Assembly: GCA_023411445.1 (NCBI GenBank)
Contig: JAEYOT010000416.1
Location: forward strand, 1 to 11,227
Source of the DNA: Pseudomonadota bacterium
GTDB taxonomy: Bacteria > Myxococcota_A > Polyangia > Polyangiales > Polyangiaceae
Reading direction: 5' to 3'
DNA length: 11,227 nucleotides
Shown: in pieces, positions 1 to 11,227 of the stretch
How positions within the stretch are numbered: the stretch's first letter is position 1
Layout of the letters: every line of letters starts with the position of its first letter
Notes under the pieces: model-generated
What the model was told of the DNA's origin: nothing
The model's input: the letters and a program-made list of their open reading frames with translations, nothing else
The model's database searches: none
Position numbers and translations under genes: made by a program

Positions 1-1062
1 GAACAAGCTGGGCTGCACGAAGATAACGAACGGGTGCTCGGCGACGCTGCCGTCGCTCACGGCGGCTTCGGCCCTCGCCACGTCTTCCAGCGTGCCCGCT
101 AGGTGCACCGTGGCGGCCTGCCGGCAACGCGCATCGAGCCAGGGTACGGGGCCGGCCAGCGCCCAATCCATCTTGAACACACCGGGCCCATAGCGAAAGC
201 GCCGGAGTCGCGCGCGGTAGCCGGCCGGCCAGCGCTCGCCGACCACGTGCAGCAGCTGGCGGGGGGTGAGGTCGTACAGGTAAGCGCGTGCTTGCGGGAG
301 CTCCGTGTGGCTCCTGACCGGCTGTCTCAGCGCCAGCTCGCCGCCCAGCTGCTCGAAGCAGCGCACCAGCGCGCGGGTGATGCTCTGCGAGCCGCCCTGA
401 GCCAGCGGCCAGCCCGCCACGTGGGCGCTCAGCGCCAGCACCAGCGCGAACGACGCTGTCGCGGGGAGGTGTAGCGGCTGCATGGCGTGCGCTCCCATGC
501 CGGCCAGCAGCGCTCGGGTAGCGGGCTCTGCGAAATGCCGGCGCGCAAAGCCCGCGAGCGAAGGCAGCGCCAGCAAGCCGAAGCGAGCCAGCAGCAGCGG
601 CGCCCGCGGCACCCGCAAGGGGCCGAGCACCTCTCGGAACAGCTCGTCCGCGCGCGCCACGAGCGGAGACATCAGCTCGTGGTAAGCGCTGTGGTCGGCG
701 CCCAACCCCTGCGCCGTGGCATCGAGTGAGCGGGATAAGGTTGCGGCCGAGCCGTCGCTCAGCACATGGGCCAGCGCCAGCGGCGAATCACACCAGCTGA
801 CGCCGTAGCGTTCCAGGCTCAAAGAGCGGAAGAAGGGCGAGGCGACGCCGAGCGGGTGTACCGTAGAGCACACGTCGTGGTGGTGGCCGGGGAGCGTGAG
901 CTGAGCCGTGCGTGCGCCGCCACCCGGCGTCGGCTTGGCTTCGATCAGCAAGGTCGAGAGCCCTGCACGGCAGAGCTCAATCCCGGCGGCCAGGCCGTTC
1001 GGGCCCGCGCCGACGACTCCTGCGTCGTAGCGCTGGCTGCGGCCGAAGCGGCGGGCGCTCAC
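1..1062 (-). CDS. NAD(P)/FAD-dependent oxidoreductase, phytoene dehydrogenase-like (3' end outside window)
   Basis: The frame is open for 354 codons from a GTG at 1062 to the window edge, so the C-terminal part is missing. The N-terminus carries a dinucleotide-binding motif, VVGAGPNGLAAGIEL (about residues 16-30), then an acidic residue at the end of the second strand (LLIEA, E41) and the GG-ART segment that contacts FAD in this family. The stretch DVCSTVHPLGVASPFF and the later GWPLAQGGSQSITRAL are typical of phytoene-desaturase-related amine-oxidase-fold flavoproteins (COG1233). Family members are usually near 480-530 residues, so roughly 130-170 are missing. The substrate cannot be read from sequence; few such relatives are real carotenoid enzymes. 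The GTG start overlaps the SDR stop codon as GTGA, so translation is probably coupled and the two redox enzymes may act together. Confidence 0.85.
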   Translation of the reverse strand, partial: MSARRFGRSQRYDAGVVGAGPNGLAAGIELCRAGLSTLLIEAKPTPGGGARTAQLTLPGHHHDVCSTVHPLGVASPFFRSLSLERYGVSWCDSPLALAHVLSDGSAATLSRSLDATAQGLGADHSAYHELMSPLVARADELFREVLGPLRVPRAPLLLARFGLLALPSLAGFARRHFAEPATRALLAGMGAHAMQPLHLPATASFALVLALSAHVAGWPLAQGGSQSITRALVRCFEQLGGELALRQPVRSHTELPQARAYLYDLTPRQLLHVVGERWPAGYRARLRRFRYGPGVFKMDWALAGPVPWLDARCRQAATVHLAGTLEDVARAEAAVSDGSVAEHPFVIFVQPSLF

Positions 1063-2021
1063 GCGCCGCGCAGCGCCCGCCCCGCGTAGTGACCAAACAG
1101 CCAAGCGATCAGCGAGGGCAGGCTCACTCTCGGGGGCCGTTGGCCTCGCACCGCGGGTCCCTCAGCAGCGGGGCGCCACAAGTTTCCACCCGCATCCAGC
1201 TGCTGGCGCTCGCCGAAATGCCAGCGGCTGAGCGTGTCGTGAATGACTCGTTCCACGGTGCGCGGGAAGAGGGCGTGCAGCGCCAGGCCGAGCTGGGCGG
1301 AGCGCGGCACGTGGAGCTCTCGGCGCGGTCGCTCGATCAGCGTCACCAGCGCCCGCGCGACGACCTCCGGCGCCAGCGCCGGCGGCATGGCGTGCGCCTC
1401 GCGACCGACGAAGTTGGCTCCGGTTTGGAAGTGGGGCGTGTCGACAGCATACGGAAGCAGCGTGCAGACGTGGATGCTCGGCTCGTCCGCGACCTCCGCG
1501 CGCAGCGCCTCACTCAGCCCGCGCAGCGCGAACTTGCTGATGACGTAGGAGGGGACGAAGGGCTGCCCGACCTTGCTCAAGATCGAGCCGACGTTGATCA
1601 GGGTCCCGGCGTGCTGACGCCGAAAAATCGGTATCACGGCGCGAGCTCCGTGCACGGAGCCCCAAAGGTTGGTTTCGACCACTCGTCGCAGTTCCGGAAG
1701 CGGGGTGCTCTCGAGCGCTCCGAACGCCGTGACCCCGGCGTTGTTGATCCACACGTCGATGCGGCCCGCCTGCTCCAGAGCGTGGCTCGCCACGCGCGCC
1801 ACGTCTGCTTCGAGCGTCACGTCGCAGACGAGCGCCGTGGCGCTAGCGCCCAACGCACGACAACGCTGCGCGGTGTCCTCGACTGCGTCAGCGCGACGCG
1901 CTGCGAGGATCAGGCGAGCGCCCTGACCAGCTAGCTCTAGCGCCGTGGCTCGTCCGATGCCGCTCGAAGCTCCGGTTAGCACCACGCATTGGCCAGCTAC
2001 GGGTGTCGTTCGTTGGAGCAT
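1059..2021 (-). CDS. Short-chain dehydrogenase/reductase (SDR)
   Basis: A 320-residue classical SDR. The cofactor motif TGASSGIG is at residues 16-23, CDV at 66-68, NNAG at 93-96, and the catalytic tetrad is N118, S146, Y159, K163 (YVISK). The fold ends near residue 240. The remaining 80 residues form a C-terminal extension with a hydrophobic stretch (LPSLIAWLFGHYAG, 301-314), which may bind membrane or a partner. Classical SDRs are about 250 residues, so this belongs to the longer ~320-residue type. It should oxidise or reduce an alcohol/carbonyl substrate with NAD(P)(H); which one is unknown. The ATG at 2021 leaves a normal 15 residues before the glycine motif. No Shine-Dalgarno precedes it, but a sigma-54-like promoter ends 12 nt upstream. 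It is the first gene of an operon with the overlapping FAD oxidoreductase. Confidence 0.92.
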   Translation of the reverse strand: MLQRTTPVAGQCVVLTGASSGIGRATALELAGQGARLILAARRADAVEDTAQRCRALGASATALVCDVTLEADVARVASHALEQAGRIDVWINNAGVTAFGALESTPLPELRRVVETNLWGSVHGARAVIPIFRRQHAGTLINVGSILSKVGQPFVPSYVISKFALRGLSEALRAEVADEPSIHVCTLLPYAVDTPHFQTGANFVGREAHAMPPALAPEVVARALVTLIERPRRELHVPRSAQLGLALHALFPRTVERVIHDTLSRWHFGERQQLDAGGNLWRPAAEGPAVRGQRPPRVSLPSLIAWLFGHYAGRALRGA

Positions 2022-2033
2022 GCGACGCAGGCT

Positions 2034-2048
2034 GCAACGCGCATGCCC
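2034..2048 (-). promoter_or_regulatory. Sigma-54-like -24/-12 promoter for the SDR operon
   Basis: Read on the minus strand it is GGGCATG-CGCG-TTGC, matching TGGCACG-N4-TTGC at 9 of 11 positions with exact GG-N10-GC spacing and an A after TTGC. There are 12 nt between its last C and the ATG, so the predicted start of transcription is about 1 nt before the start codon. Seen: motif and spacing. Inferred: promoter function. Confidence 0.5.
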
Positions 2049-2212
2049 GCGTGGCGTTTGCTCTGCTCAAGTGGTGTCGGCGTCAGCGTTCTGATGCATC
2101 AGCGTGATGGATCGCCGGTCGGAGCTGCCATGCCGATCGTGGTGGTACCGATTGATGTTGGGGTCGCCCACCCCATCGGAGCCGCGCTCGTTCGCTTTCG
2201 TGAGACAAAAAA

Positions 2213-2227
2213 CGTCAGGATTTGACG
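2213..2227. promoter_or_regulatory. Inverted repeat CGTCA-N5-TGACG, possible operator
   Basis: A perfect 5 bp dyad with a 5 bp spacer, centred about 125 bp upstream of the response regulator start. The right arm overlaps a TTGACG hexamer that could serve as a -35 box, so a bound regulator might block or recruit polymerase. The half-site recurs once as TGACG at 2272-2276. The dyad is short enough to be chance. Confidence 0.3.
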
Positions 2228-2344
2228 ACTTCTTTGCGCACATACTGGGTAGGTGCACTTCATAAATCGTTTGACGCCATACGTTCTCCAACTCAAAAGC
2301 GGATGTTCATGAGTCGGTCAAGTATGACGCCTGTGAGCAGCTCG

Positions 2345-2995
2345 ATGCCTGTGCGGCTGCTCTTGGTCGATGATCACCCCGCGTTCCGCGCGGGGGTGTC
2401 CGGATTGCTCGGCACCGATCCGGAGCTATCGGTCGTGGCCGAGGCCTCCGACGGAAGCTCCGCGCGGGCGAGCGCGCTGGAGCTGCGACCGGACATGGTG
2501 CTGATGGACCTATCGCTCCCGGACCAGCGCGGCGTGGACGTGACGCGTGACCTCGTCGCGCAGCTGCCTGGCATCAAGATCCTGGGTCTCTCCGCGCATG
2601 AGGAGCCGGCATACGCCCGGGCGATGCTGGACGCAGGCGCAGCCGGCTACGTGCTGAAGCGCAGCGCTTGTGACGATCTCATCCGCGCTGTGAAAGCCGT
2701 CGCCAAGGGCGGCACGTACGTGGACCCAGCCATCGCGCGCTCGCTAATGCGCGGCCACTCCCGCGCCAGCTCGGGTGTCGGCGTCTCTACCGACATCAAC
2801 TTGAGCGAGCGCGAAATTCAGGTCATTCGTCTGGTGGCGAGCGGCCACACGGCGAAGGAGATGGCGGACGATCTCGGCGTCAGCCCAAGGACGCTGGAGA
2901 CGTACCGCGCACGCGCGATGTCGAAGCTCAACTTGCGCAGCCGCGCCGAGCTGATCCGCTATGCGCTCCGCTCGGGTTGGCTGCGCGATGGTTGA
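2345..2995 (+). CDS. Orphan response regulator, NarL/FixJ (REC-LuxR HTH)
   Basis: From the ATG at 2345 it has 216 residues, the usual length for the family. The receiver domain (3-120) has the acidic pair D9-D10, phosphoacceptor D55 (LMDLSLPD), S83 and K105 (GYVLKRS). A LuxR-type helix-turn-helix follows (about 152-213: LSEREIQVIRLVASGHTAKEMADDLGVS), with recognition helix SPRTLETYRARAMSKL. It should bind DNA as a phosphorylation-controlled dimer. The frame is open further upstream (ATGs at 2303, 2309 and 2324), but those add residues with no family similarity. No clear Shine-Dalgarno identifies the start, so the exact N-terminus is uncertain. No kinase is adjacent. The nearest candidate is the GAF kinase 6 kb away, whose own regulator is a close paralogue of this one (shared SPRTLETYR). 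Confidence 0.93.
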   Translation: MPVRLLLVDDHPAFRAGVSGLLGTDPELSVVAEASDGSSARASALELRPDMVLMDLSLPDQRGVDVTRDLVAQLPGIKILGLSAHEEPAYARAMLDAGAAGYVLKRSACDDLIRAVKAVAKGGTYVDPAIARSLMRGHSRASSGVGVSTDINLSEREIQVIRLVASGHTAKEMADDLGVSPRTLETYRARAMSKLNLRSRAELIRYALRSGWLRDG

Positions 2996-2997
2996 CC

Positions 2998-3729
2998 TCA
3001 CTCAGCGGCGCTGCGTCCCTGTGCCGCCGTCAGCCAGGCTCGCACGTCCTCGAGGTGAACGGCTTCCTCCGCCAACGCGCGTTCGAAGGCGTCGACGGTC
3101 TCCTCGTCGCCGGTAGCGCGCACGAGCTCAATCAGCGTCTCCCAGCAGTCGTTGTCGGCGAGCTCCGCCACGAGGGCCGCCTCCAGGCACTGCACGAACG
3201 TCGTGCGCGGATCGACCATGACCTCGAGCGCACCCTTCGTTATGGTGGCTTGCAGGTCGGCCGACGGGGTCATGACGGTCGGATCCGCGCCCAGCTTGGC
3301 GAGCACCTGCGTCAAGAGCAAGAACTGCTCGTACTCCTCGCGCATCGCCTTCTCGAGGTGGAGCAGCTCGGGGCCGCCGGGAAAGCTGCCGTACACGTTG
3401 TACTTGGAGATGAGCGCCTCATACAGCCGAACGCCCGTGCGCTCGAACGCCAAGCGCTCGCCGAGCTTGTCGATGAGTTGAGTGGGCTTGGTTCCCTTCA
3501 CGGCCTCCACGGCGGTGGAGACCATGCCCTTGACGGTGGGGGGCGGCGGGAGCGTGCCAATGGGCTCGGACTGCTCGGCGAACAGCTCGCGCACGTCCGA
3601 GATGCCGCGCTCATTTCCCACGCCATCTGCCGGGAATTCGCGCGTCCCTTCCACCATGCGCGCTGCGTCCGTGGGAGACGTGCCGATGCCCGTACGATTC
3701 CTGCCGAGGCTCACTGATTGACTAGACAT
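2998..3729 (-). CDS. Ferritin-like domain protein (small)
   Basis: A 243-residue protein with a long polar, low-complexity N-terminus (1-80, with NRTGIGTSP and a four-proline run) followed by a four-helix ferritin-like domain. Candidate metal ligands fall in helix order: E96 and E104 (AFERTGVRLYEAL), E126/E131/E132 (HLEKAMREEYEQF), E183 and E189 (CLEAALVAELADND), and E221/E222 with H225 (EEAVHLEDV). The last is the classic ExxH. A di-iron or iron-handling role is therefore likely, though the reaction (storage, oxidase or peroxide defence) is unknown. The ATG at 3729 is chosen over a start 7 codons upstream because GAGGAAAG precedes it at good spacing. It lies 13 bp after the larger ferritin-like gene, in the same operon. 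Its stop codon is 2 bp from that of the convergent regulator. Confidence 0.8.
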   Translation of the reverse strand: MSSQSVSLGRNRTGIGTSPTDAARMVEGTREFPADGVGNERGISDVRELFAEQSEPIGTLPPPPTVKGMVSTAVEAVKGTKPTQLIDKLGERLAFERTGVRLYEALISKYNVYGSFPGGPELLHLEKAMREEYEQFLLLTQVLAKLGADPTVMTPSADLQATITKGALEVMVDPRTTFVQCLEAALVAELADNDCWETLIELVRATGDEETVDAFERALAEEAVHLEDVRAWLTAAQGRSAAE

Positions 3730-3732
3730 GTT

Positions 3733-3740
3733 CTTTCCTC
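3733..3740 (-). promoter_or_regulatory. Shine-Dalgarno fixing the start of the small ferritin-like gene
   Basis: GAGGAAAG on the minus strand, with its GAGG core 7 nt before the ATG at 3729. It selects this ATG over the in-frame start 21 nt upstream. It contrasts with the large ferritin-like gene of the same operon, which has no such site. Confidence 0.75.
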
Positions 3741-3742
3741 GT

Positions 3743-4942
3743 TCAAGCAATTGGGTTGCGTTCGCCCTGGCGCAGCGGCGCGCGGCGGCTGAGCTCGGTG
3801 CCGGGCATCCACACGTAGCCCTGAGCTACCGTGTCCGAAGGTGAGCCTTCCGAGTTGAGCTGCGCCCGCTGGCGAGCGCTGGGTCCCTGCGGGTCCTCCT
3901 CGTCGAAGGGCACGAACACCGGACCTACCGCGGTGAGCTGCACCTCCGTGCGCAGGACCTCACGGACGAAGTCGCGGTGGCTCTCGTAGGCGATGGGCGC
4001 CGGCAGCTTGGCGTTGAGGATCTCCGCGGCGTCGCGGCGTTCATGCCGCTCGAACAGCGCGATGACGTGTTGGAGCTGACCGAGCTCGTAGTCCAGGAAG
4101 CGCTCCCAGATGGCCTTGATGCGCTTGTTGCCTTCGTACTCGACGCAGCTGTGGTAGTTGTAAACCTCGTTGGCCTCGTGCAGAAGGAGCTTCTCGAGCC
4201 ACGTCTCTTCCGGGTCGACGATCGACTCGTACTGCGTGACGTGCTGCTCCTCAATCGACGCGATCTCGGCGTACAGCTGACGACCGATGGGATCCGCGTA
4301 AGTGGGGCCGACGGTCATGTAATAGTCGTGGGTCTGGTACTCGGCGGCGACCAGCGTGAGAGCATGCAGCTTGGTGCTGAGCGCTGTGGCATGACGGTCG
4401 TAGGGCGAGCGCAGGTCGTCCTCGGGCGCGCGGTGCTCCACGATCGTGGGGCGACCCGGCAGGATGTCGGTGTAGCTCTGGAGCAAGTTGTTGGCATCCT
4501 TGCCCTCTACACGGTCCATCAAGGCCGAGTAGCGGTACATGTGGTCGAAGTCCTCCAGCAGACCGAAGCGGTAGACCTGGGCCAGGTACGGGTCCTGCTC
4601 GGCTTTGGCCAGCGCCGCCGTCACCTCGATCGCCACCTGCTCGAAGCCGATGGTGGTCTCGAGCACGTTTTGATCGGCGGGGTTGAGCCAGTTGACCAGC
4701 GTCTGCTGGTGCTGCTCCACGCGGCGGATCTTGGCCAGATCCAGCTGCAGCTGCCGGTTCATGCGTGAACAGGCGTGGCTGAAGCGAATCGCTTCGGACT
4801 CGATGCCGTTCATGAGGATGACGCGCACGCGCGTGAAAGCGTCGTCATCCAACTTGCTGTACGGGGGAGACGTCAGCTCCTTCCAGGTAAATTTTTGCTG
4901 TTCGAGCGGCGTGCCGCGGTCCTTCAAGAGATCGATCGCCAT
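3743..4942 (-). CDS. Large ferritin-like protein with two helical-bundle halves
   Basis: A 399-residue soluble protein. After a conserved-looking opening (SPPYSKLDDDAFTRVRVILMNGIE, 25-48) there are two helical regions rich in metal-ligand motifs. The first half (about 45-145) has E48/E50, E101/E106 and EDFDH (130-134). The second (about 190-300) has E201, EEQHVTQYE (231-239), E257, E268/E270 and DYELGQLQHV (284-293). ExxH and ExxxxxH patterns support a ferritin/rubrerythrin-like fold, apparently duplicated. The last 60 residues look disordered. The exact family and any catalytic activity are not known to me. ATG 4942 is preferred; a GTG 40 codons upstream only adds an arginine-rich tail that looks like non-coding sequence. 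No Shine-Dalgarno is present, and a strong sigma-54-like motif ends 14 nt upstream. It is the first gene of the operon with the small ferritin-like protein. Confidence 0.75.
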   Translation of the reverse strand: MAIDLLKDRGTPLEQQKFTWKELTSPPYSKLDDDAFTRVRVILMNGIESEAIRFSHACSRMNRQLQLDLAKIRRVEQHQQTLVNWLNPADQNVLETTIGFEQVAIEVTAALAKAEQDPYLAQVYRFGLLEDFDHMYRYSALMDRVEGKDANNLLQSYTDILPGRPTIVEHRAPEDDLRSPYDRHATALSTKLHALTLVAAEYQTHDYYMTVGPTYADPIGRQLYAEIASIEEQHVTQYESIVDPEETWLEKLLLHEANEVYNYHSCVEYEGNKRIKAIWERFLDYELGQLQHVIALFERHERRDAAEILNAKLPAPIAYESHRDFVREVLRTEVQLTAVGPVFVPFDEEDPQGPSARQRAQLNSEGSPSDTVAQGYVWMPGTELSRRAPLRQGERNPIA

Positions 4943-4956
4943 GGGCGCGACCGAAC

Positions 4957-4971
4957 GCACGGAACGTGCCA
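4957..4971 (-). promoter_or_regulatory. Sigma-54-like -24/-12 promoter for the ferritin-like operon
   Basis: TGGCACG-TTCC-GTGC on the minus strand matches TGGCACG-N4-TTGC at 10 of 11 positions, including all seven of the -24 block, with GG-N10-GC spacing. There are 14 nt to the ATG, so the expected transcript would start about 3 nt before the start codon. The core also forms a small dyad, GCACG-TTC-CGTGC, so a repressor site is an alternative reading. Confidence 0.6.
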
Positions 4972-5058
4972 GGGCGTTAAGTCGCCTGTTCGCGCCAGAC
5001 GCAAGATTCCTCGTCCTCCGTAGCGCTTCTTTGCGCCGAACCCTCGCGCCCCTGTGGT

Positions 5059-5074
5059 GCACAATCGTGCCAGG
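5059..5074 (-). repeat. Second copy of the CCTGGCACG element
   Basis: CCTGGCACGATTGTGC on the minus strand resembles CCTGGCACGTTCCGTGC of the promoter about 100 bp downstream (4957-4973). Both share the first nine bases and a terminal GTGC. Here the GG-to-GC spacing is 9, not 10, so it should not be a working sigma-54 promoter. It could be a regulator site or a duplicated promoter remnant. Confidence 0.4.
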
Positions 5075-5308
5075 CTGTTTGCGGACAGCGACGTGATCGC
5101 GCGAGCGCCCGTCGGCAGCGGGGCGATGCGGAGTACCGCGACTGTGAGGGCGCGGCGGTGAAATGCGCGCCCGACTTGGCGGCTACGTGCCCTGCTCTTT
5201 CGTGGTGGCGAGACGGTCGAGAACCCGTGCGGCGTTCTCTCCTGGCATCGAGCACCACCCTGTGACGAGGAGGAATGAGCTGCCGGGACGCTCACCCCTC
5301 AGGTTGAA

Positions 5309-5353
5309 GCAGCGACTCGCACGAACAACCCTTTCCGCCGTACGAGTCGCTGC
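5309..5353 (-). repeat. Perfect 11 bp inverted repeat with 23 nt loop
   Basis: GCAGCGACTCG (5309-5319) is exactly mirrored by CGAGTCGCTGC (5343-5353). It lies 50-94 nt after the dehydrogenase stop codon in the direction of transcription. The 11 bp GC-rich stem would be stable, but no U-run follows. It could mark a transcript end, protect the 3' end of the mRNA, or be a protein-binding dyad. Confidence 0.6.
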
Positions 5354-5355
5354 AA

Positions 5356-5400
5356 CGAGCGTGACCTTTGCAGCCCGCATGCCAAGGCTGCTCGCGCTCG
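5356..5400 (-). terminator. Nested stem-loop directly after the dehydrogenase gene
   Basis: CGAGCG (5356-5361) pairs with CGCTCG (5395-5400), and inside it GCAGCC (5370-5375) pairs with GGCTGC (5386-5391) around a 10 nt loop. It begins 3 bp after the stop codon and is followed by the 11 bp stem at 5309-5353. It has no U-tract, so it is not a textbook intrinsic terminator; Rho-dependent ending or mRNA protection is as likely. Confidence 0.4.
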
Positions 5401-5402
5401 AG

Positions 5403-6581
5403 TCACGCCGCCTTGAGCACTACCTTCTCGCACTCATCGCGGTTGTTCAGGAACAAGTCGTAGCCCTCCGCGGCGGCCGTGAGCGGCAGTCGGTGTGTGA
5501 CCACGAAGCTGGGGTCGATTTCGCCGCGCTCGATCCGCTCCAGCAGTGGCTTCATGTAGCGATGGACGTGACACTGTCCGGAACGGAGCGTGAGCGAGCG
5601 GTTCACGATGGCGCCCATCGGAAAATGATCGATGAAGCCACCGTAGACGCCGATCACCGACACCACCCCGCCGTTCTTGACGCAGCGGATGGCTTGGCGC
5701 AGCGCGATCGGCCGGTCGCTCTCCAGCATCATGGCTTGCTTTCCGCGATCCAGCGCGTAGAGGAGCGCGTTCTCGGAGTGCGCCTCGAGGCCCACCGCAT
5801 CGATGCAGGCATCGGGTCCTCGCCCGCCCGTGAGGCCTTGCAGCGTGTCGTACACGTCGTGCTGTTCGTAGTTGATCACGTCAGTGGCGCCAGCCTGGTC
5901 GGCGGCGCGCTGCAAGCGGCGCTCGAAGCGGTCGATGGCGATGACGCGCTCGGCCCCGAGCATGCGCGCGCTGGCGATTGCAAACAGGCCCACGGGGCCG
6001 GCGCCCCAGACCGCCACCACGTCGCCAGGCTTGATGTCGCACATCTCCGCGCCCATGTAGCCCGTCGGGAAGATGTCCGACAGGAAAAGCACCTGCTCGT
6101 CGGTCAGGTGCTCCGGCACCTTGAGCGGACCGATGTCCGCGAAGGGCACGCGCACGTACTCTGCTTGACCGCCCGCGTACCCGCCTAGCAAGTGCGAGTA
6201 CCCGAAGATGCCGCAGGGCGAGTGTCCCCACATCTTCTCGGCGGCCCAGGCGTTGGGGTTAGAGTTCTCACACAGCGAGGTGGTGCCTGCCTTGCACGCC
6301 CCGCAATTGCCACAGGCGATCGGGAACGGTACGACCACGCGGTCGCCCACCGTCAAGTTGGAGACGCCCGCGCCCACCTCGACGACTTCCCCCATGAACT
6401 CGTGCCCTAGGATGTCGCCGTGCTGCATGCTGGGCACGAAGCCATTGTAGAGGTGTAGGTCCGAACCGCAGATGGCCGTGCTGGTCACGCGTACAATCGC
6501 GTCACGCGGGGTCAAAATCTTGGGATCCGGCACGTCCTGGACTTGGACCTTCTTCTTGCCGATGAAGCAATTCGCTTTCAT
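5403..6581 (-). CDS. Zinc-dependent alcohol dehydrogenase, formaldehyde dehydrogenase-like
   Basis: A 392-residue medium-chain dehydrogenase. Catalytic zinc ligands are visible as C38 (AICGSD), H60 and E61 (LGHEFMG) and probably D169 (LSDIFPTGY). The structural zinc site is C90, C93, C96, C104. The Rossmann motif VWGAGPVGL spans 191-199, with D217 at the end of the second strand, favouring NAD+ over NADP+. The FLSDIFPTGYMGAEM segment and the 370-400 residue length are those of the glutathione-independent formaldehyde dehydrogenase-like branch (COG1063), but the aldehyde or alcohol used cannot be told. The ATG at 6581 starts 1 bp after the SRPBCC stop codon, with AAGGAG 11 nt upstream inside that gene, so translation is coupled. 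The open frame upstream of this ATG is a shadow of the SRPBCC gene. Confidence 0.93.
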   Translation of the reverse strand: MKANCFIGKKKVQVQDVPDPKILTPRDAIVRVTSTAICGSDLHLYNGFVPSMQHGDILGHEFMGEVVEVGAGVSNLTVGDRVVVPFPIACGNCGACKAGTTSLCENSNPNAWAAEKMWGHSPCGIFGYSHLLGGYAGGQAEYVRVPFADIGPLKVPEHLTDEQVLFLSDIFPTGYMGAEMCDIKPGDVVAVWGAGPVGLFAIASARMLGAERVIAIDRFERRLQRAADQAGATDVINYEQHDVYDTLQGLTGGRGPDACIDAVGLEAHSENALLYALDRGKQAMMLESDRPIALRQAIRCVKNGGVVSVIGVYGGFIDHFPMGAIVNRSLTLRSGQCHVHRYMKPLLERIERGEIDPSFVVTHRLPLTAAAEGYDLFLNNRDECEKVVLKAA

Positions 6582-6582
6582 T

Positions 6583-7521
6583 TCAGACTTCGCTCCTTCC
6601 GAGCACGATGGGGGTTTCGTCGGCTGACGGGGGACGTGCGGCGTGCATGAAACGGTGAATGCTGGCGTCCGAGTGGGCGATGCTGCCCGTCTCGAGCACC
6701 TGCTTGAGCCGCCGCAAGTCCCCGCTGATCTGCTGGCCCGGCTCTTCGCCGAACAGCTTCGCGAAGGCAGCTCCGATCGCTCCTCCGGGCGGCTCGTACT
6801 TGAGCTCGACCAGCACCTCAGTGCCGCGATCACCCGGCGCTGGGCTGAAGCGCACGACGCCGCGGTTCGGCACGAGGGCTCCCTCGACGGAGCGCCACGC
6901 GATGCAGCGACCCGGCTCGTCCTGCGTGATTTCCGCGCGCCACTCGATGCTCGAGCCGGCCGGCCCCTTGGCGCGCCAGTACGATGCGACGCCTTCCTCG
7001 CGCACTTCCTCCAGGTGAGCCATAAAGCGTGGCAAATTCACCAGGTCTCGCCAGAACTCGTACACCACGCTCGGAGGCGCGCCGATCGTGATGCTGCGCA
7101 CCACGTGAATCGGCTTCACCAGGTCCTGCGCCTTGCCGGAGCGCGACAGGCGCGCGGCGCTGAGCGTGTCCACCGCCGCGATGCCGGCCACCGCAGCCGT
7201 AGCGGCGCTCAGGCGCGGACGGCTCTTCACGCCGTTGGTCATCGCAGCGCCGAGCAGGGTCAAGTCGACCACGTCGCCTGCGACGCGAGCCCACAGCGGT
7301 CCGGCCGAGCGGCGTGCCAGGAGTCCGAGGCCACTGACCACCTCGCGTGCCCCGACCGCTCGCATCACGTTTCGAACCGAGGAGCTATCTTTGAGCCCGA
7401 TGAGACGCGCCAGGCGTCCCGGCGCGACCAACTGCGAAATGCCCAGCGCTAGGCTGAACAAGCCGAGTAACTCCGCGCGCCGCTCGCTGCTTTCCCGCCG
7501 ACTGATGGCTAGTGCTTGCAT
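6583..7521 (-). CDS. SRPBCC (cyclase/dehydrase-type) protein with N-terminal membrane region
   Basis: 312 residues in two parts. The first 125 residues hold about four hydrophobic helices (near 18-34, 56-70, 82-96, 104-122) separated by arginine-rich loops, predicting membrane attachment. Residues 137-280 form an SRPBCC (START-like, ligand-binding) domain: VVRSITIGAPPSVVYEFWRD, NLPRFMAHLEEV, WRAEITQDEPGRCIAWRS, VRFSPAPGDRGTEVLVEL, and the closing EEPGQQISGDLRRLKQVLETG. The fold binds hydrophobic small molecules; the ligand is unknown. Such proteins are often found beside zinc dehydrogenases and general-stress genes, as here. ATG 7521 has no Shine-Dalgarno, but a sigma-54-like motif ends 13 nt upstream. 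It is the first gene of a two-gene operon with the dehydrogenase. Confidence 0.85.
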   Translation of the reverse strand: MQALAISRRESSERRAELLGLFSLALGISQLVAPGRLARLIGLKDSSSVRNVMRAVGAREVVSGLGLLARRSAGPLWARVAGDVVDLTLLGAAMTNGVKSRPRLSAATAAVAGIAAVDTLSAARLSRSGKAQDLVKPIHVVRSITIGAPPSVVYEFWRDLVNLPRFMAHLEEVREEGVASYWRAKGPAGSSIEWRAEITQDEPGRCIAWRSVEGALVPNRGVVRFSPAPGDRGTEVLVELKYEPPGGAIGAAFAKLFGEEPGQQISGDLRRLKQVLETGSIAHSDASIHRFMHAARPPSADETPIVLGRSEV

Positions 7522-7534
7522 GGCGCGCGGGAGT

Positions 7535-7549
7535 GCAACCCGTGTGCCT
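7535..7549 (-). promoter_or_regulatory. Sigma-54-like -24/-12 promoter for the SRPBCC-dehydrogenase operon
   Basis: AGGCACA-CGGG-TTGC on the minus strand, followed by A, matches TGGCACG-N4-TTGC at 9 of 11 positions with GG-N10-GC spacing. There are 13 nt to the ATG, giving a predicted leader of about 2 nt. A direct repeat lies about 88-126 bp upstream of the predicted start, where sigma-54 activators commonly bind. Confidence 0.5.
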
Positions 7550-7611
7550 CGAGCAGGGAGCGCAGGGAGTGGCAGCTTGCCCGCCGCGCACCCGCCGCGG
7601 CGTCGCGAGTT

Positions 7612-7650
7612 GGCGCCCTCTTGTCCGTGCGGGGCGCCCTTGTCGTCACG
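7612..7650 (-). repeat. Imperfect tandem direct repeat, 21 bp period
   Basis: On the plus strand GGCGCCCTCTTGTCCGT (7612-7628) is followed by GGCGCCCTTGTCGT (7633-7646). The two differ by a two-base and a one-base indel. The start-to-start distance is 21 bp, two helical turns, so both copies face the same side of the DNA. The location upstream of the SRPBCC operon suggests a paired regulator site. Together with the promoter it fills much of the 142 bp gap between the CxxC gene and SRPBCC. Confidence 0.4.
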
Positions 7651-7663
7651 CTCTGCCGAGCGT

Positions 7664-8113
7664 CTATTGCGCTTTCCGAGACGTGCCCGGATCCTCCACC
7701 GCTAGCATGGTGCCAGAGCTTCGCTGCATGGACAGGGCCGACAAGATCGTGCGCAGCATGCCCAAGGCGTAGCGTTGCGCGGAGGGTTTGCCTCCGTAAG
7801 CGAGTTGGAGCGGCGTGAAGCCAGGCAAGCGGCTAGACATCACCTCGAAGAACGCCTCGTAGGTGCCGTCCTGAAGCGCGGCTTCCAACCGCAAGAGCAG
7901 CTGCGCAGCCTGAAGAGAGCCCAGCGAGCCTTCTGCCACGGCTTGACTCAGATCCGCGAACAGCTCGCGATCTTTCTCGCCGTACAGACAGCTGGGGATC
8001 ACGCGCGCTGCCTCGCCACACTGCGCGCAGGCGAGCGGACCCTGCGCAATCTGCGTGGCAGCCGTGAGGTCGACAGCGCTACATCGGCTGCAGATGGTCG
8101 GTAAGTAGGACAT
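7664..8113 (-). CDS. Small protein of unknown function with two CxxC pairs (zinc ribbon-like)
   Basis: 149 residues. The N-terminus carries C8-x2-C11 and C29-x2-C32, spaced like a zinc ribbon or small metal-binding knuckle, with a further C42. The rest (45-130) is mostly helical and soluble: ELFADLSQAVAEGSLGSLQA, then a leucine-rich helix (LLLRLEAAL) and MLRTILSALSM. I do not recognise the family. GGAGAGG stands just before the ATG at 8113 and fixes the start; the frame upstream of it is arginine-rich non-coding sequence. It lies 62 bp downstream of the response regulator on the same strand, so it is probably co-transcribed with the kinase-regulator pair. It could be a regulatory partner, but nothing in the sequence proves that. 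Confidence 0.75.
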   Translation of the reverse strand: MSYLPTICSRCSAVDLTAATQIAQGPLACAQCGEAARVIPSCLYGEKDRELFADLSQAVAEGSLGSLQAAQLLLRLEAALQDGTYEAFFEVMSSRLPGFTPLQLAYGGKPSAQRYALGMLRTILSALSMQRSSGTMLAVEDPGTSRKAQ

Positions 8114-8175
8114 GCCTCTCCATAGCCGTTTTGCGACAGGGCCCCATGTCAGTCGTTTCACGGACACGGTCCGGC

Positions 8176-8851
8176 TTAGCCATGCGCAGGCCCGGAGGGC
8201 TCTCGATCTTCCGCAGCCTCGCGTAGCCAACCGCACGCGGCAGCGAAGCTCATCAGGTCCGCCCGGGAACGCAGCTGCAGCTTGTGCATCCCGCGGCTCC
8301 GGTACGTTTCCAGCGTGCGCGGGCTCAACCCCAAGCGCCTAGCGATCTCGAAGCGGTCGTGACCGAGGGCCGTCAGGCGCAGCACGAGGCCTTCGCGCTC
8401 GCTCAGCGCTGGCGAAGCCAGCGTGACCGGAGACTGGTCTTGCCTGCCCAGCTCGATCCGGCGATCCACGTAGATCTGCCCCCTGGCGACCTGACGCACC
8501 GCCTGGAGCAGCTCCTGCAGCGAGCTCCGCTTGCTCAGGTAGCCGCGAGCCCCGGCAGCCAGGGGCCTGCTGCACCAGCCATGCTTCCTCGCGCATCGAG
8601 AAGATCAACACCTGGAGCGTGGCCTGTGCCCGCAGTAGCTGCTGCGTCAGCTCGATGCCGCTAGTCAGCGGCAACATCATATCTATCAATGCCACCTGAG
8701 GGCGCGCGGCCAAGGCTTGGAGCGCGGACTCGGCGTCGCCTGCTTCCGCCACCACCTCGAGCTCCGCGCTCTGCGACAAAACGCCGCGAACTCCCCGGCG
8801 CAGGGCAGCGTGATCATCCACCACCAGAACTCGCGTTGGCGCGGACGCCAT
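8176..8851 (-). pseudogene. NarL/FixJ response regulator broken by a one-base frameshift
   Basis: The receiver part starts at ATG 8851: acidic pair D12-D13, phosphoacceptor D57 (LIDMMLPL), S85. It loses frame at a run of four C's on the minus strand (GGGG at 8562-8565), just after EEAWLVQQA. Removing one base restores LAAGARGYLSKRSS, with the conserved K107, and leads without a stop into the LuxR helix-turn-helix (LSEREGLVLRLTALGHDRFE, then SPRTLETYRSRGMHKL) ending at TAA 8176. The repaired product is 224 residues, full family length, and no other damage is seen, so this is either a very recent mutation or a sequencing error. As written, the regulator would lack its DNA-binding domain. GGGGAC lies close upstream of the ATG. 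It follows the kinase by 43 bp and is its obvious partner. The HTH is closely related to that of the regulator at 2345. Confidence 0.85.
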
Positions 8852-8894
8852 TTGTCCCCGTGTGTGCATGCCTGCGTGCCCTGTCAATAGCACC

Positions 8895-10124
8895 TCAGGG
8901 CCGGGAGGGGAGGTCGGCGGGGGGCGGCAGCGCTGTTGGCAACCGGAACGAAAACTCGCTACCGCTACTCGTGCTGGCGACGTCCAACGTCCCGCCGTGC
9001 GCCTCGGCGATGCGCCGAGCCAAGTACAGGCCGAGCCCGAGCCCTCGCGCCGGTCCAGCAGCGACGAAGCGGTCGAACAAGCGTTCCCGGAGCGATGGCT
9101 CGATGCCGCTACCCTGGTCGCTGACCCGGATCGTGACAGCCTGAGCGTCCGAGGACATGGCAATGACGACCGGCTTGCCGCGAGAGTGCTTGACGCCGTT
9201 GAGCACGACGTTCTCCAGCGCCTGTCGCAAGCGATTGGCGTCGGCGATCAGCACCAGCTCTGCCGGTGCCTCCACGTGTACTCGGCCGCTGCCGCTGCTG
9301 CATAGTTGCCCCACCTCCTGCGCCAGCGCGGAGACGTCGACCGGAGCGAGCTCCAGGGCGAACAGACCCTGCTCTAAACGCGCCGAATCCAGCAGATCTT
9401 GCGTCAGGCGTGAGAGTCGCTGAACGGAGGCCACGGCGGCGTCGAGCTGCGCCACCTCGATGACCTCGCCTTGCAGCACGAGCAGCCGAAGCATCTGCAA
9501 GCGACCGAACAACGGGTTGAGGTGGTTCCAAATGTCGTGCGCCAAGACCGTGACAATCTCGTCGGCGGCGGCGCGTCGGCCGTGCTCTGCTTCCTCGCGG
9601 CGCAGTCGCTGGACCAGGTGAGAGCGCTGCGCCAGCGAGCTCACACACTGGCCGATCAGCTGGAGCAACTGCACGTCATCGTCCCTGAAATGCTCTGGCT
9701 GGGGGCTGCACGCGCCGAGCACGCCCTGGAGCTCGTCATCCAAATAGAGGGGGACGAGCAACTGCGAGCGCACGCCCAGATCGTGGACGATGCCGCGCAG
9801 CTCCTCGCCGTCGCGCTCGACGTGCCCGTCCAGGTGCGGCCGGCCGGAGCGAAAGACCTGCACGATGCGGCCTCCGTTGGCGACCGGCAGCACGTCGAGG
9901 CCCAGCTGCTTCTGGCGTTCGCCCAACGGGGTTCGACTGGTGCCGATCGCGATCAGCGAGCTGCGGCTGCTGTCGTAGAAGAATGCGTCTACCTTCTCGC
10001 AGCTGAGCACGCCTGCCACGGCGCTCGCTGCCTCGGTGAGCGCTTGTCGCTCATCGACCGCCGACAGCTTCAATAGGTCTTGCAGCAGCCCGACCAGCTT
10101 GCTCGGCTCGAGCGGGCTCGCCAT
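8895..10124 (-). CDS. Cytosolic GAF-domain sensor histidine kinase
   Basis: 409 residues, no signal peptide or membrane helix. A GAF sensor domain (about 20-165; AVAGVLSCEKVDAFFYD, QLLVPLYLDDELQGVLG) is followed by a short coiled coil (165-185), then the dimerisation/phosphoacceptor domain with H196 in VLAHDIWNHLNPLFGRLQML. The HATPase domain has N305 (ALENVVLNGVKHS), the G1 box DQGSGI (336-341), the F box LFDRFVA and the G2 box GLGLGLY (361-367). The H-box resembles the HDLRNYLTPL variant seen in GAF kinases rather than the common HELRNPL. It should sense a cytosolic ligand or redox state and phosphorylate the adjacent regulator. ATG 10124 is preferred because a sigma-54-like motif ends 16 nt upstream; an ATG at 10169 would sit beyond that promoter. 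No Shine-Dalgarno is present. Confidence 0.92.
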   Translation of the reverse strand: MASPLEPSKLVGLLQDLLKLSAVDERQALTEAASAVAGVLSCEKVDAFFYDSSRSSLIAIGTSRTPLGERQKQLGLDVLPVANGGRIVQVFRSGRPHLDGHVERDGEELRGIVHDLGVRSQLLVPLYLDDELQGVLGACSPQPEHFRDDDVQLLQLIGQCVSSLAQRSHLVQRLRREEAEHGRRAAADEIVTVLAHDIWNHLNPLFGRLQMLRLLVLQGEVIEVAQLDAAVASVQRLSRLTQDLLDSARLEQGLFALELAPVDVSALAQEVGQLCSSGSGRVHVEAPAELVLIADANRLRQALENVVLNGVKHSRGKPVVIAMSSDAQAVTIRVSDQGSGIEPSLRERLFDRFVAAGPARGLGLGLYLARRIAEAHGGTLDVASTSSGSEFSFRLPTALPPPADLPSRP

Positions 10125-10140
10125 TGGAAGGGGATGGGAA

Positions 10141-10155
10141 GCGAAGGACGTGCCA
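10141..10155 (-). promoter_or_regulatory. Sigma-54-like -24/-12 promoter for the histidine kinase operon
   Basis: TGGCACG-TCCT-TCGC on the minus strand, preceded by T and followed by T, matches TGGCACG-N4-TTGC at 10 of 11 positions with GG-N10-GC spacing. There are 16 nt to the kinase ATG, so the predicted leader is about 5 nt. Its upstream edge is 6 bp from the divergent hydrolase promoter. Confidence 0.55.
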
Positions 10156-10161
10156 ACGGCT

Positions 10162-10176
10162 TGGAACATGCGTTGC
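10162..10176 (+). promoter_or_regulatory. Sigma-54-like -24/-12 promoter for the cysteine hydrolase
   Basis: TGGAACA-TGCG-TTGC, preceded by T and followed by A, matches TGGCACG-N4-TTGC at 9 of 11 positions with GG-N10-GC spacing. There are 12 nt between its last C and the GTG at 10189. It overlaps the ATG at 10168, which argues against that ATG as the translational start. Confidence 0.5.
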
Positions 10177-10188
10177 AGCTCAGACGGC

Positions 10189-10767
10189 GTGCCTGACTCT
10201 TTGCCGGATGCGCCGAGCCCCGTTGTTCTCCTGTTGATTGACGTGATCAACCCCTTCGACTTCGAGGGGCGCGAGCCGCTGCTGGAGGCCGCACAGCAGT
10301 GCGCGCCCCGCATCGCAGCCCTCCGGGATGAGTGCCGTCGCGCAAAGATTCCCGTCATTTACGTCAACGACAACTTTGGGCGCTGGCGCTCGGATTTTAG
10401 GTCCATCGTCGAGATGTGCGCGGCGCCGGAGCAGGCCGGGCGCCGCGTCACCGAGCTACTGAGCCCAGGCGAGCAGGACTATTTCGTGCTCAAGCCCCGA
10501 CATTCGGCGTTCTACTGCACTGCCTTGGAGCTTTTGCTCGAGCAGCTGGAAGCGCGCACGCTGATCGTGGTCGGCTTCGCGACCAACATTTGCGTCTTGT
10601 ACACCGCGAATGACGCGCACATGCGAAGCTACGACGTGGTCGTGCCCTCCGACTGCACTGCGTCCAACTCCCCGCAGTTGACGGAGCAGGCGCTCGCGCA
10701 AATGCGCCTGGTCTCACGGGCTCGCACGGAGCCCTCCACCGAGTTGAACGTCGAGCTCCTTCGTTGA
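10189..10767 (+). CDS. Isochorismatase-like cysteine hydrolase
   Basis: From GTG 10189 it has 192 residues, typical of the family. The catalytic triad is D18 (LLLIDVINPFDFEG), K102 (FVLKPRHSAFYCT) and C135 (GFATNICVLYTANDAHM), and the FAT-N stretch before the cysteine is where this family has its cis peptide. Members hydrolyse amide or vinyl-ether bonds (nicotinamide, carbamoyl compounds, isochorismate); the substrate here is unknown, and nothing nearby points to siderophore or NAD metabolism. The frame is open upstream to an ATG at 10168, but that start lies inside a sigma-54-like promoter and adds nothing conserved, so the GTG is preferred. No Shine-Dalgarno precedes either start. It is divergent from the histidine kinase with 64 bp between start codons. 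Confidence 0.88.
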   Translation: MPDSLPDAPSPVVLLLIDVINPFDFEGREPLLEAAQQCAPRIAALRDECRRAKIPVIYVNDNFGRWRSDFRSIVEMCAAPEQAGRRVTELLSPGEQDYFVLKPRHSAFYCTALELLLEQLEARTLIVVGFATNICVLYTANDAHMRSYDVVVPSDCTASNSPQLTEQALAQMRLVSRARTEPSTELNVELLR

Positions 10768-10804
10768 CCAACCGTGGGGGGATGCTTGCTGTCGCGGGTG
10801 CGTG

Positions 10805-10819
10805 CGGCATCCAAATTGC
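10805..10819 (+). promoter_or_regulatory. Sigma-54-like -24/-12 promoter for the terminal small gene
   Basis: CGGCATC-CAAA-TTGC followed by A matches TGGCACG-N4-TTGC at 8 of 11 positions, with GG-N10-GC spacing and A's before TTGC. It is the weakest of the six. The predicted transcription start is near 10831, giving an ordinary leader of about 19 nt that contains GGAG (10840-10843) 6 nt before the ATG. Confidence 0.45.
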
Positions 10820-10821
10820 AC

Positions 10822-10835
10822 CGTGGCGCGCCACG
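10822..10835. repeat. Perfect 14 bp palindrome over the predicted transcription start
   Basis: CGTGGCGCGCCACG reads the same on both strands. It begins 2 bp after the -12 element of the candidate promoter at 10805-10819 and covers the predicted +1. A regulator bound here would block promoter opening, so an operator is a reasonable reading; a 5'-end hairpin is less likely because there is no loop. Confidence 0.45.
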
Positions 10836-10849
10836 CTACGGAGTACTGA

Positions 10850-11227
10850 ATGCAAGGAAGTAACGTGACGCGACGCTTTGCGGACCAGGTGCACGGTGTT
10901 GCGCGCGCGCTGGAGCAGGCGTCCAGCGGGCTGCGCGCCGGCGAGCACTCAGAGCTGGCCCGCCACACCGAAGGCTTGGCCAAGAAGATGGAGCAAGTGG
11001 CCGACGCGCTGGCGACCCGCGATGTGTCGTCGCTGGCTCGCGAGGTGAAGCGGTTGGCGCAGCAGCAGCCCGCGCTCTTCATCAGTGGTGCGTTCACGGC
11101 CGGCTTGGTGGCCGCACGCTTCCTGAAGAGCAGCGCGCGCCGCGCTCCTGCTCTCGAGCAGGAGGCCGAGCCCGTGGCGGCATCGATGGAGCGAGCTGCC
11201 GACGACGATGGCTTCGGCCCTGCGCCG
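10850..11227 (+). CDS. Small one-helix membrane protein, stress-associated type (3' end outside window)
   Basis: 126 codons are visible and the frame is still open at the edge. The N-terminal 75 residues are hydrophilic and helical, with heptad-like leucines (VARALEQASSGLRAGEHSEL, LAKKMEQVADALATRDVSSL). Then comes the signature RLAQQQPALFISGAFTAGLVAARFLKSSA (about 73-101) with one hydrophobic helix, followed by an acidic, disordered tail. The QQPALF-x-GAF-x-G-ARFLKSS pattern occurs in small hypothetical proteins of stress or nutrient-limitation clusters, often beside holin-like and YtxH/DUF3618-type genes. No biochemical function is established to my knowledge. ATG 10850 has GGAG 6 nt upstream; GTG 10865 with AAGGAAG before it is an equally possible start. 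It lies 82 bp after the cysteine hydrolase on the same strand and has its own promoter motif. Confidence 0.75.
   Translation, partial: MQGSNVTRRFADQVHGVARALEQASSGLRAGEHSELARHTEGLAKKMEQVADALATRDVSSLAREVKRLAQQQPALFISGAFTAGLVAARFLKSSARRAPALEQEAEPVAASMERAADDDGFGPAP

Follow-up and report, generated by a model that had tools for sequence, protein, structure and literature searches.

Sigma-54-type promoter motifs beside start codons in a Polyangiaceae contig point to near-leaderless genes across a wider lineage

Contig JAEYOT010000416.1 (assembly GCA_023411445.1), deposited as a Pseudomonadota bacterium and placed by GTDB in the Polyangiaceae, was analysed over positions 1–11,227 of its forward strand; this whole stretch of 11,227 nucleotides (nt) is referred to here as the window. 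Five of its genes, encoding a short-chain dehydrogenase (SDR), a large ferritin-like protein, an SRPBCC protein, a GAF-domain histidine kinase and an isochorismatase-family cysteine hydrolase, are each preceded by a motif resembling the -24/-12 promoters of sigma-54 (RpoN), ending close to the start codon (Table 1). The motifs were scored at 11 positions against TGGCACG-N4-TTGC, a site being counted as strong if it carried the GG-N10-GC core and matched at least 9 of these; all five have the core and 9–10 matches. An A or T (W) immediately follows the -12 GC in four of them. A preliminary description of this DNA had given the scores as 9, 10, 9, 10 and 9 and the distances to the start codon as 12, 14, 13, 16 and 12 nt, and every one of these values was recovered. 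It had also held that the five starts lack a Shine–Dalgarno (SD) sequence, whilst the small ferritin-like gene (start 3729), the zinc alcohol dehydrogenase gene (ADH, 6581), the CxxC gene (8113) and the terminal gene (10850) possess one. Inspection of the upstream sequences by eye agrees on both counts, with no SD core ahead of any of the five. Two response regulator genes, starting at 2303 and 8851, have neither an SD sequence nor the motif upstream.

Table 1. Features of the window. Gap, nucleotides between the motif and the start codon; +1, predicted transcription start.
Feature	Position	Strand	Remarks
Putative sigma-54 -24/-12 site GGGCATGCGCGTTGC	2034..2048	-	9/11; gap 12 to SDR start; predicted +1 ~2022, leader ~1 nt
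Putative sigma-54 -24/-12 site TGGCACGTTCCGTGC	4957..4971	-	10/11; gap 14 to large ferritin-like start; predicted +1 ~4945, leader ~3 nt
Putative sigma-54 -24/-12 site AGGCACACGGGTTGC	7535..7549	-	9/11; gap 13 to SRPBCC start; predicted +1 ~7523, leader ~2 nt
Putative sigma-54 -24/-12 site TGGCACGTCCTTCGC	10141..10155	-	10/11; gap 16 to kinase start; predicted +1 ~10129, leader ~5 nt
Putative sigma-54 -24/-12 site TGGAACATGCGTTGC	10162..10176	+	9/11; gap 12 to hydrolase GTG; predicted +1 ~10188, leader ~1 nt
Weaker sigma-54-like site CGGCATCCAAATTGC	10805..10819	+	8/11 with GG/GC core; gap 30 before gene 10850; SD present, leadered contrast
SDR gene	1059..2021	-	PF00106, E 2.9e-46; start aligned to ATG of G082 and G086 orthologues
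Large ferritin-like protein gene	3743..4942	-	'Ferritin-like' is the label of the preliminary description; no Pfam family; start aligned to relatives
Small ferritin-like gene	2998–3729	-	Next after large ferritin-like gene; own SD; Pfam ferritin domain
SRPBCC (polyketide cyclase-like) gene	6583..7521	-	PF03364, E 1.1e-12; PF10604, E 1.1e-9; followed by ADH gene
ADH gene	5403–6581	-	Follows SRPBCC gene; own SD
GAF-domain histidine kinase gene	8895..10124	-	PF02518, PF01590; PF00512 slightly below its cut-off
Isochorismatase-family cysteine hydrolase gene	10189..10767	+	PF00857, E 7e-37; GTG start; alternative TTG at 10201 (gap 24)

Nine strong sites occur among the 22,426 positions of the two strands. 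For five of them, one of the 11 gene starts lies 12–16 nt downstream, compared with an expectation of 0.022 (Poisson P ~4e-11). The earlier estimate that 9 matches of 11 arise about once in 8,000 positions matches a binomial calculation with equal base frequencies. The window is 67% GC, which raises the counts of GG and GC, and the other four strong sites lie elsewhere than 12–16 nt before starts; on these grounds the matches might have arisen by chance from the high GC content, or might mark where some other protein binds the DNA. Against this, among 300 dinucleotide-preserving shuffles of the window never more than one of the 11 starts was matched.

Placement of the motif was examined genome-wide in relatives of the window's organism, the source genome lying outside this set. 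The search pattern was GGCAY-N5-TTGC followed by ATG after 0–30 nt, with the reversed pattern as control. It matched 100 times in genome G082, compared with 26 reversed matches, and 119 times in G086, compared with 25. Gaps of 12–16 nt account for 61 of the 100 matches in G082, with 17, 16, 11, 9 and 8 at 12, 13, 14, 15 and 16 nt as against 2 at 11 nt and 1 at 17 nt; searched alone, the interval gave 68, seemingly since the 0–30 nt listing does not give every match of a site that is followed by several ATGs. For G086, 20 of the 50 matches listed (from 119) have such gaps, and 62 were found when 12–16 nt was searched alone. The genome-wide peak at 12–16 nt that the preliminary description had envisaged is thus present in these relatives. 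W follows the -12 GC in 51 of the 63 G082 matches at 11–16 nt. Sigma-54 promoters initiate transcription about 12 nt beyond the GC of the -12 element, and the sharp lower edge at 12 nt therefore fits a start codon situated just inside the transcript. SD-like cores between motif and ATG were present in 12 of 63 G082 matches at 11–16 nt and in 6 of 8 at 20–30 nt; among the matches listed for G086 the corresponding figures are 4 of 22 and 6 of 9.

The same excess at 12–16 nt is seen over the family as a whole. In 108 genomes there are 2597 matches at 12–16 nt versus 786 at 30–34 nt, the excess reaching p<1e-3 in 41 genomes taken singly. Outside the family search, a Kofleriaceae metagenome-assembled genome (MAG), G009, has 60 versus 10, and six Myxococcota or deltaproteobacterial MAGs, this one included, total 162 versus 35. 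Counts elsewhere are 58 versus 42 in five Myxococcaceae/Archangiaceae-type genomes (p 0.07), 120 versus 111 in eleven beta- and gammaproteobacteria, 5 versus 4 in Nannocystis and 4 versus 1 in one planctomycete. The groupings used here (Myxococcaceae/Archangiaceae-type, beta/gamma, other MAGs) were assigned within this analysis. A peculiarity of the island alone was set aside, as the peak extends across the G082 genome and the family.

A gene-level test was made on 798 kb of G082, in which a simple codon-usage script, blind to upstream signals, called 603 genes, 598 of them with enough upstream sequence. As the contigs were chosen for known pattern matches, this sample gives biased absolute frequencies, but its distance profile is affected much less; no such bias attaches to the whole-genome counts. 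Strong sites lie 12–16 nt before these codon-only starts in 21 cases and 17–21 nt before them in 7, with 0–4 in the other 5-nt bins, whilst the reversed motif gave none at 12–16 nt. When sites were selected by the bare GG-N10-GC core, the TT of the consensus, a column unused for selection, was found in 20 of 64 at 12–16 nt and 0–6 times in each other bin; CA occurred in 19 of 64 at 12–16 nt and 11 of 40 at 17–21 nt, and A or T after the GC showed a modest rise (39 of 64 at 12–16 nt). Unselected consensus columns are thus most enriched at 12–16 nt and next at 17–21 nt, which argues against both chance and another protein. In 400 kb of Archangium, at 68.5% GC, no sigma-54 site was found at 12–16 nt. 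Chance in GC-rich DNA was set aside on the shuffles, the reversed motif and Archangium, and an origin of the matches in chance or in a different binding protein is scarcely credible.

The codon-only starts also bear on the idea that the sigma-54 sites are real but the true start codons lie further downstream, behind ordinary leaders, so that the abutment is an error of start calling. Starts called from codon usage give the same peak, miscalled starts would not be expected to produce the sharp onset at 12 nt, and the starts of the SRPBCC, SDR, kinase and large ferritin-like genes agree with those of their orthologues. The hydrolase would suit such an error: its orthologues align to a start 3–5 codons downstream (gap 24–25), in G082 with an SD sequence. 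Furthermore, GTG makes up 5 of the 21 called starts in the G082 class. Miscalling of this kind is a very unlikely explanation.

Few genes of this class have an SD core: one precedes 2 of the 21 G082 genes with a site at 11–16 nt and 6 of the 18 with a site at 25–80 nt. Inside operons the core is present in 48 of 104 genes. Among the others it occurs in 93 of the 380 that have at least 60 nt of upstream gap (24%) and in 12 of the remaining 75; control positions inside genes give 93 of 560 (17%). TANNNT boxes number 18, 8 and 7 at gaps of 6, 7 and 8 nt in G082, against roughly 2 per position. Since -10 boxes peaking 6–8 nt before starts are a sign of leaderless sigma-70-type genes, leaderless initiation looks general in G082, and the idea that such starts are used by sigma-54 alone was set aside. 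The same pipeline was run on 400 kb each of Archangium, G036 and G092. TANNNT counts were 12 versus 3.0 in G036, with 3 sigma-54 sites at 12–16 nt, and 9 versus 3.2 in G092, with 1 sigma-54 site. The 400 kb of Archangium showed no TANNNT peak (5 at gaps 5–8, 4.4 expected), and there 88 of 214 first genes have an SD sequence versus 52 of 255 by chance.

A search for RpoN itself (PF04552) gave a single copy in every one of 17 genomes, a set of relatives and outgroups to which the source genome does not belong, and the lack of rpoN that would have spoken against the preliminary description is therefore not seen in relatives. With the distance peak, this supports its reading of the motifs as sigma-54 promoters of near-leaderless mRNAs. 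The five motifs are probably real -24/-12 promoters giving leaderless or nearly leaderless, SD-free mRNAs, and represent one instance of a lineage trait. Sigma-54 RNA polymerase would wait at the -24/-12 site until an activator acting from elsewhere opened the complex in an ATP-driven step. With the -12 GC 12–16 nt before the codon and transcription starting about 12 nt past it, the mRNA would have a leader of 1–5 nt, and its translation would not involve SD pairing. The hydrolase could alternatively start at the TTG, which would give it a 13-nt leader. As the site abuts the start codon, an activator-dependent transcription switch would be coupled to leader-free translation. The kinase and hydrolase sites stand back to back (10141–10176) on opposite strands, and 6 bp separate their -24 ends; at so short a distance two closed complexes could hardly occupy them simultaneously.

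Conservation in relatives is mixed, and a number of observations weigh against the reading as near-leaderless sigma-54 genes. The motif, whose loss from close relatives the preliminary description had named as evidence against itself, is retained for the SRPBCC and kinase genes and in part for the SDR gene, whilst for the large ferritin-like gene and the hydrolase it is not kept in position. The SRPBCC orthologues of G082 (67% protein identity) and G086 (62% over residues 1–255) carry CGGCACG-N4-TTGC at exactly 13 nt. Kinase orthologues, sought with the first 169 residues as the whole-kinase query returned mostly other kinases, have the site at gaps of 12 (G086), 13 (G082) and 14 nt (G084, with a TTG start), and these are only 3 of 13; it lies at 25 nt in G085, is weak at 35 nt in G079 and is lacking in eight. 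In the SDR orthologues of G082 and G086 the TTGC is kept at 12–13 nt and the -24 box is degenerate, and in the G047 orthologue a 9/11 site precedes alternative starts by 14 or 26 nt. The hydrolase orthologues have TGGTACA-N4-TTGC 25 nt (G082) and 24 nt (G086) before their starts; since these closest orthologues align to a start near the TTG, the start of the window gene is ambiguous.

The large ferritin-like gene departs from the expected placement in its relatives. G082 has no copy of it, and none of 80 relatives has a GG/GC site of at least 9/11 at 12–16 nt. Such a site was found within 130 nt in 22 of the 80 once starts had been refitted (21 with extrapolated starts, where the match begins after residue 1), at distances of 27–113 nt, one of them a perfect site at 27 nt with an SD sequence (locus L005). 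An SD core accompanies 17 of these 22 genes and 70 of the 80 overall. These sites further upstream accord with a different account, in which a second promoter further ahead of each gene supplies an mRNA with a normal leader and the abutting sigma-54 site is minor or conditional; several promoters per gene are common. A longer leader would, however, be of no obvious help to translation where none of the five window starts has an SD sequence and few of the G082 class have an SD core, and this account is unlikely.

The remaining points concern the activator and the evenness of the trait. Sigma-54 promoters depend on an AAA+ enhancer-binding protein for activation. No GAFTGA activator motif occurs in the window, and a strict activator pattern was found once in the 798 kb of G082, on contig C9, with none on the scanned stretches of contigs C7 and C29. 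SD-like cores do occur even in the short gaps of G082 and G086, in the proportions given above. Within the family the ratio of the 12–16 to the 30–34 nt count is at least 2 in 78 of the 108 genomes, and one shows no excess; little difference between the two counts is seen in Archangium, Corallococcus and others. Some of the largest family genomes have almost no excess (G109, 15 versus 13; G108, 14 versus 11; G094, 19 versus 15; G096, 20 versus 17), and others of similar size a clear one (G092, 36 versus 11; G110, 24 versus 6).

The window sites resemble known sigma-54 promoters in their GG-N10-GC core, their match to the TGGCACG/TTGC consensus, the W that mostly follows the GC and the presence of RpoN in relatives. 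They differ from the usual arrangement in lying 12–16 nt before the start codon, which leaves no room for an SD leader. In having a promoter element at a fixed short distance and no SD sequence, they are like the leaderless genes with a -10 box beside the open reading frame described in the accessible parts of PMC3160421 and PMC5397173, which are of the sigma-70 type. In the portion of PMC3160421 available, leaderless genes are recognised by a sigma-70 Pribnow box, a criterion that would miss sigma-54 cases, and the terms Sorangium, Haliangium, Myxococc- and sigma-54 are absent from that portion. The transcription start maps of Sinorhizobium, Bradyrhizobium and Leptospira (PMC3616915, PMC4842269, PMC5243855) describe both leaderless mRNAs and sigma-54 promoters within a single organism; the accessible sections treat the two apart and do not mention sigma-54 sites positioned at start codons throughout a lineage. 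In the available text of PMC3162934, distances of sigma-54 sites are grouped into 100-nt bins, and in that of PMC12316311, a sigma-54 regulon survey including Polyangia, the terms 'leaderless' and 'start codon' do not occur; the latter reports that loss of rpoN by deletion is lethal in Myxococcus xanthus. Sigma-54 leaderless genes as a lineage trait were not found in the literature searched, which was accessible in part and mostly without subscription papers. The arrangement proposed here thus stands as a lineage-level variant combining two known things, with strong support at the level of sequence.

Among the other genes of the window, Pfam families include zinc alcohol dehydrogenase, for the ADH gene, and a response regulator with a LuxR-type helix-turn-helix (HTH) domain; the large ferritin-like, CxxC and terminal genes gave no match in the Pfam scan at E 0.001. 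The response regulator at 8176–8851 (minus strand) appears split, with the receiver frame running from 8851 and an HTH-like part at 8499–8176 in another frame, and this looks like a frameshift near 8560–8580. The large ferritin-like protein shares 82–83% identity with its counterparts in two Polyangiaceae MAGs (L001 and L002), and its relatives occur on 171 contig stretches. Those of the 80 loci L001–L080, at 60–83% identity, come from records whose labels include Myxococcota, beta- and gammaproteobacteria and planctomycetes, among others. In these loci, the small ferritin-like gene follows the large one in all 78 with room for it; the pair is perhaps a spreading stress module. At loci L133 and L134 (G002 and G052), TGGTTCGA-N3-TTGC sites recur 51–85 nt upstream of the ADH gene, with SD-like cores nearer its start, and in G052 such a site also lies upstream of the SRPBCC gene, 95 nt from the extrapolated start.

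The genes behind abutting sites in G082 suggest a common theme. Sixteen of the 21 proteins were scanned against Pfam, and matches over the cut-off comprise hemerythrin, haem-oxygenase-like, BrkB, glutathione transferase, PNPOx-like, GAF kinase, Ser/Thr kinase, Gfo/Idh/MocA oxidoreductase, lactonase and DUF4142 families and three response regulators. By these families, the set would be a stress regulon. Contigs C7, which carries the SRPBCC, ADH and kinase orthologues, and C29, which carries those of the SDR and hydrolase, hold 19 of the 100 G082 pattern matches on 3.6% of the genome.

Judged by motif placement, leaderless arrangement is a trait of the lineage, neither specific to the island nor confined to sigma-54, and this widens the finding of the preliminary description. 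In the Polyangiaceae and some other Myxococcota-type genomes it would be common to sigma-70-type and sigma-54 promoters alike, whilst operon-internal genes would more often keep an SD sequence. If true, the strictest on/off switch of bacterial transcription would be coupled with the simplest start of translation in a group the size of a family. Each genome would offer dozens of natural cases for studying how ribosomes choose leaderless mRNAs, and the placement would give a simple route to predicting both sigma-54 regulons and true start codons. It would also serve as a warning that a class of leaderless genes can be overlooked where a survey relies solely on the -10 box. In a broader form, for which we consider the case evenly balanced, the Polyangiaceae and related lineages may express an entire stress-type regulon of sigma-54 as leaderless mRNAs, with activator-gated transcription passing straight into an SD-independent, possibly 70S-type, mode of translation under stress.

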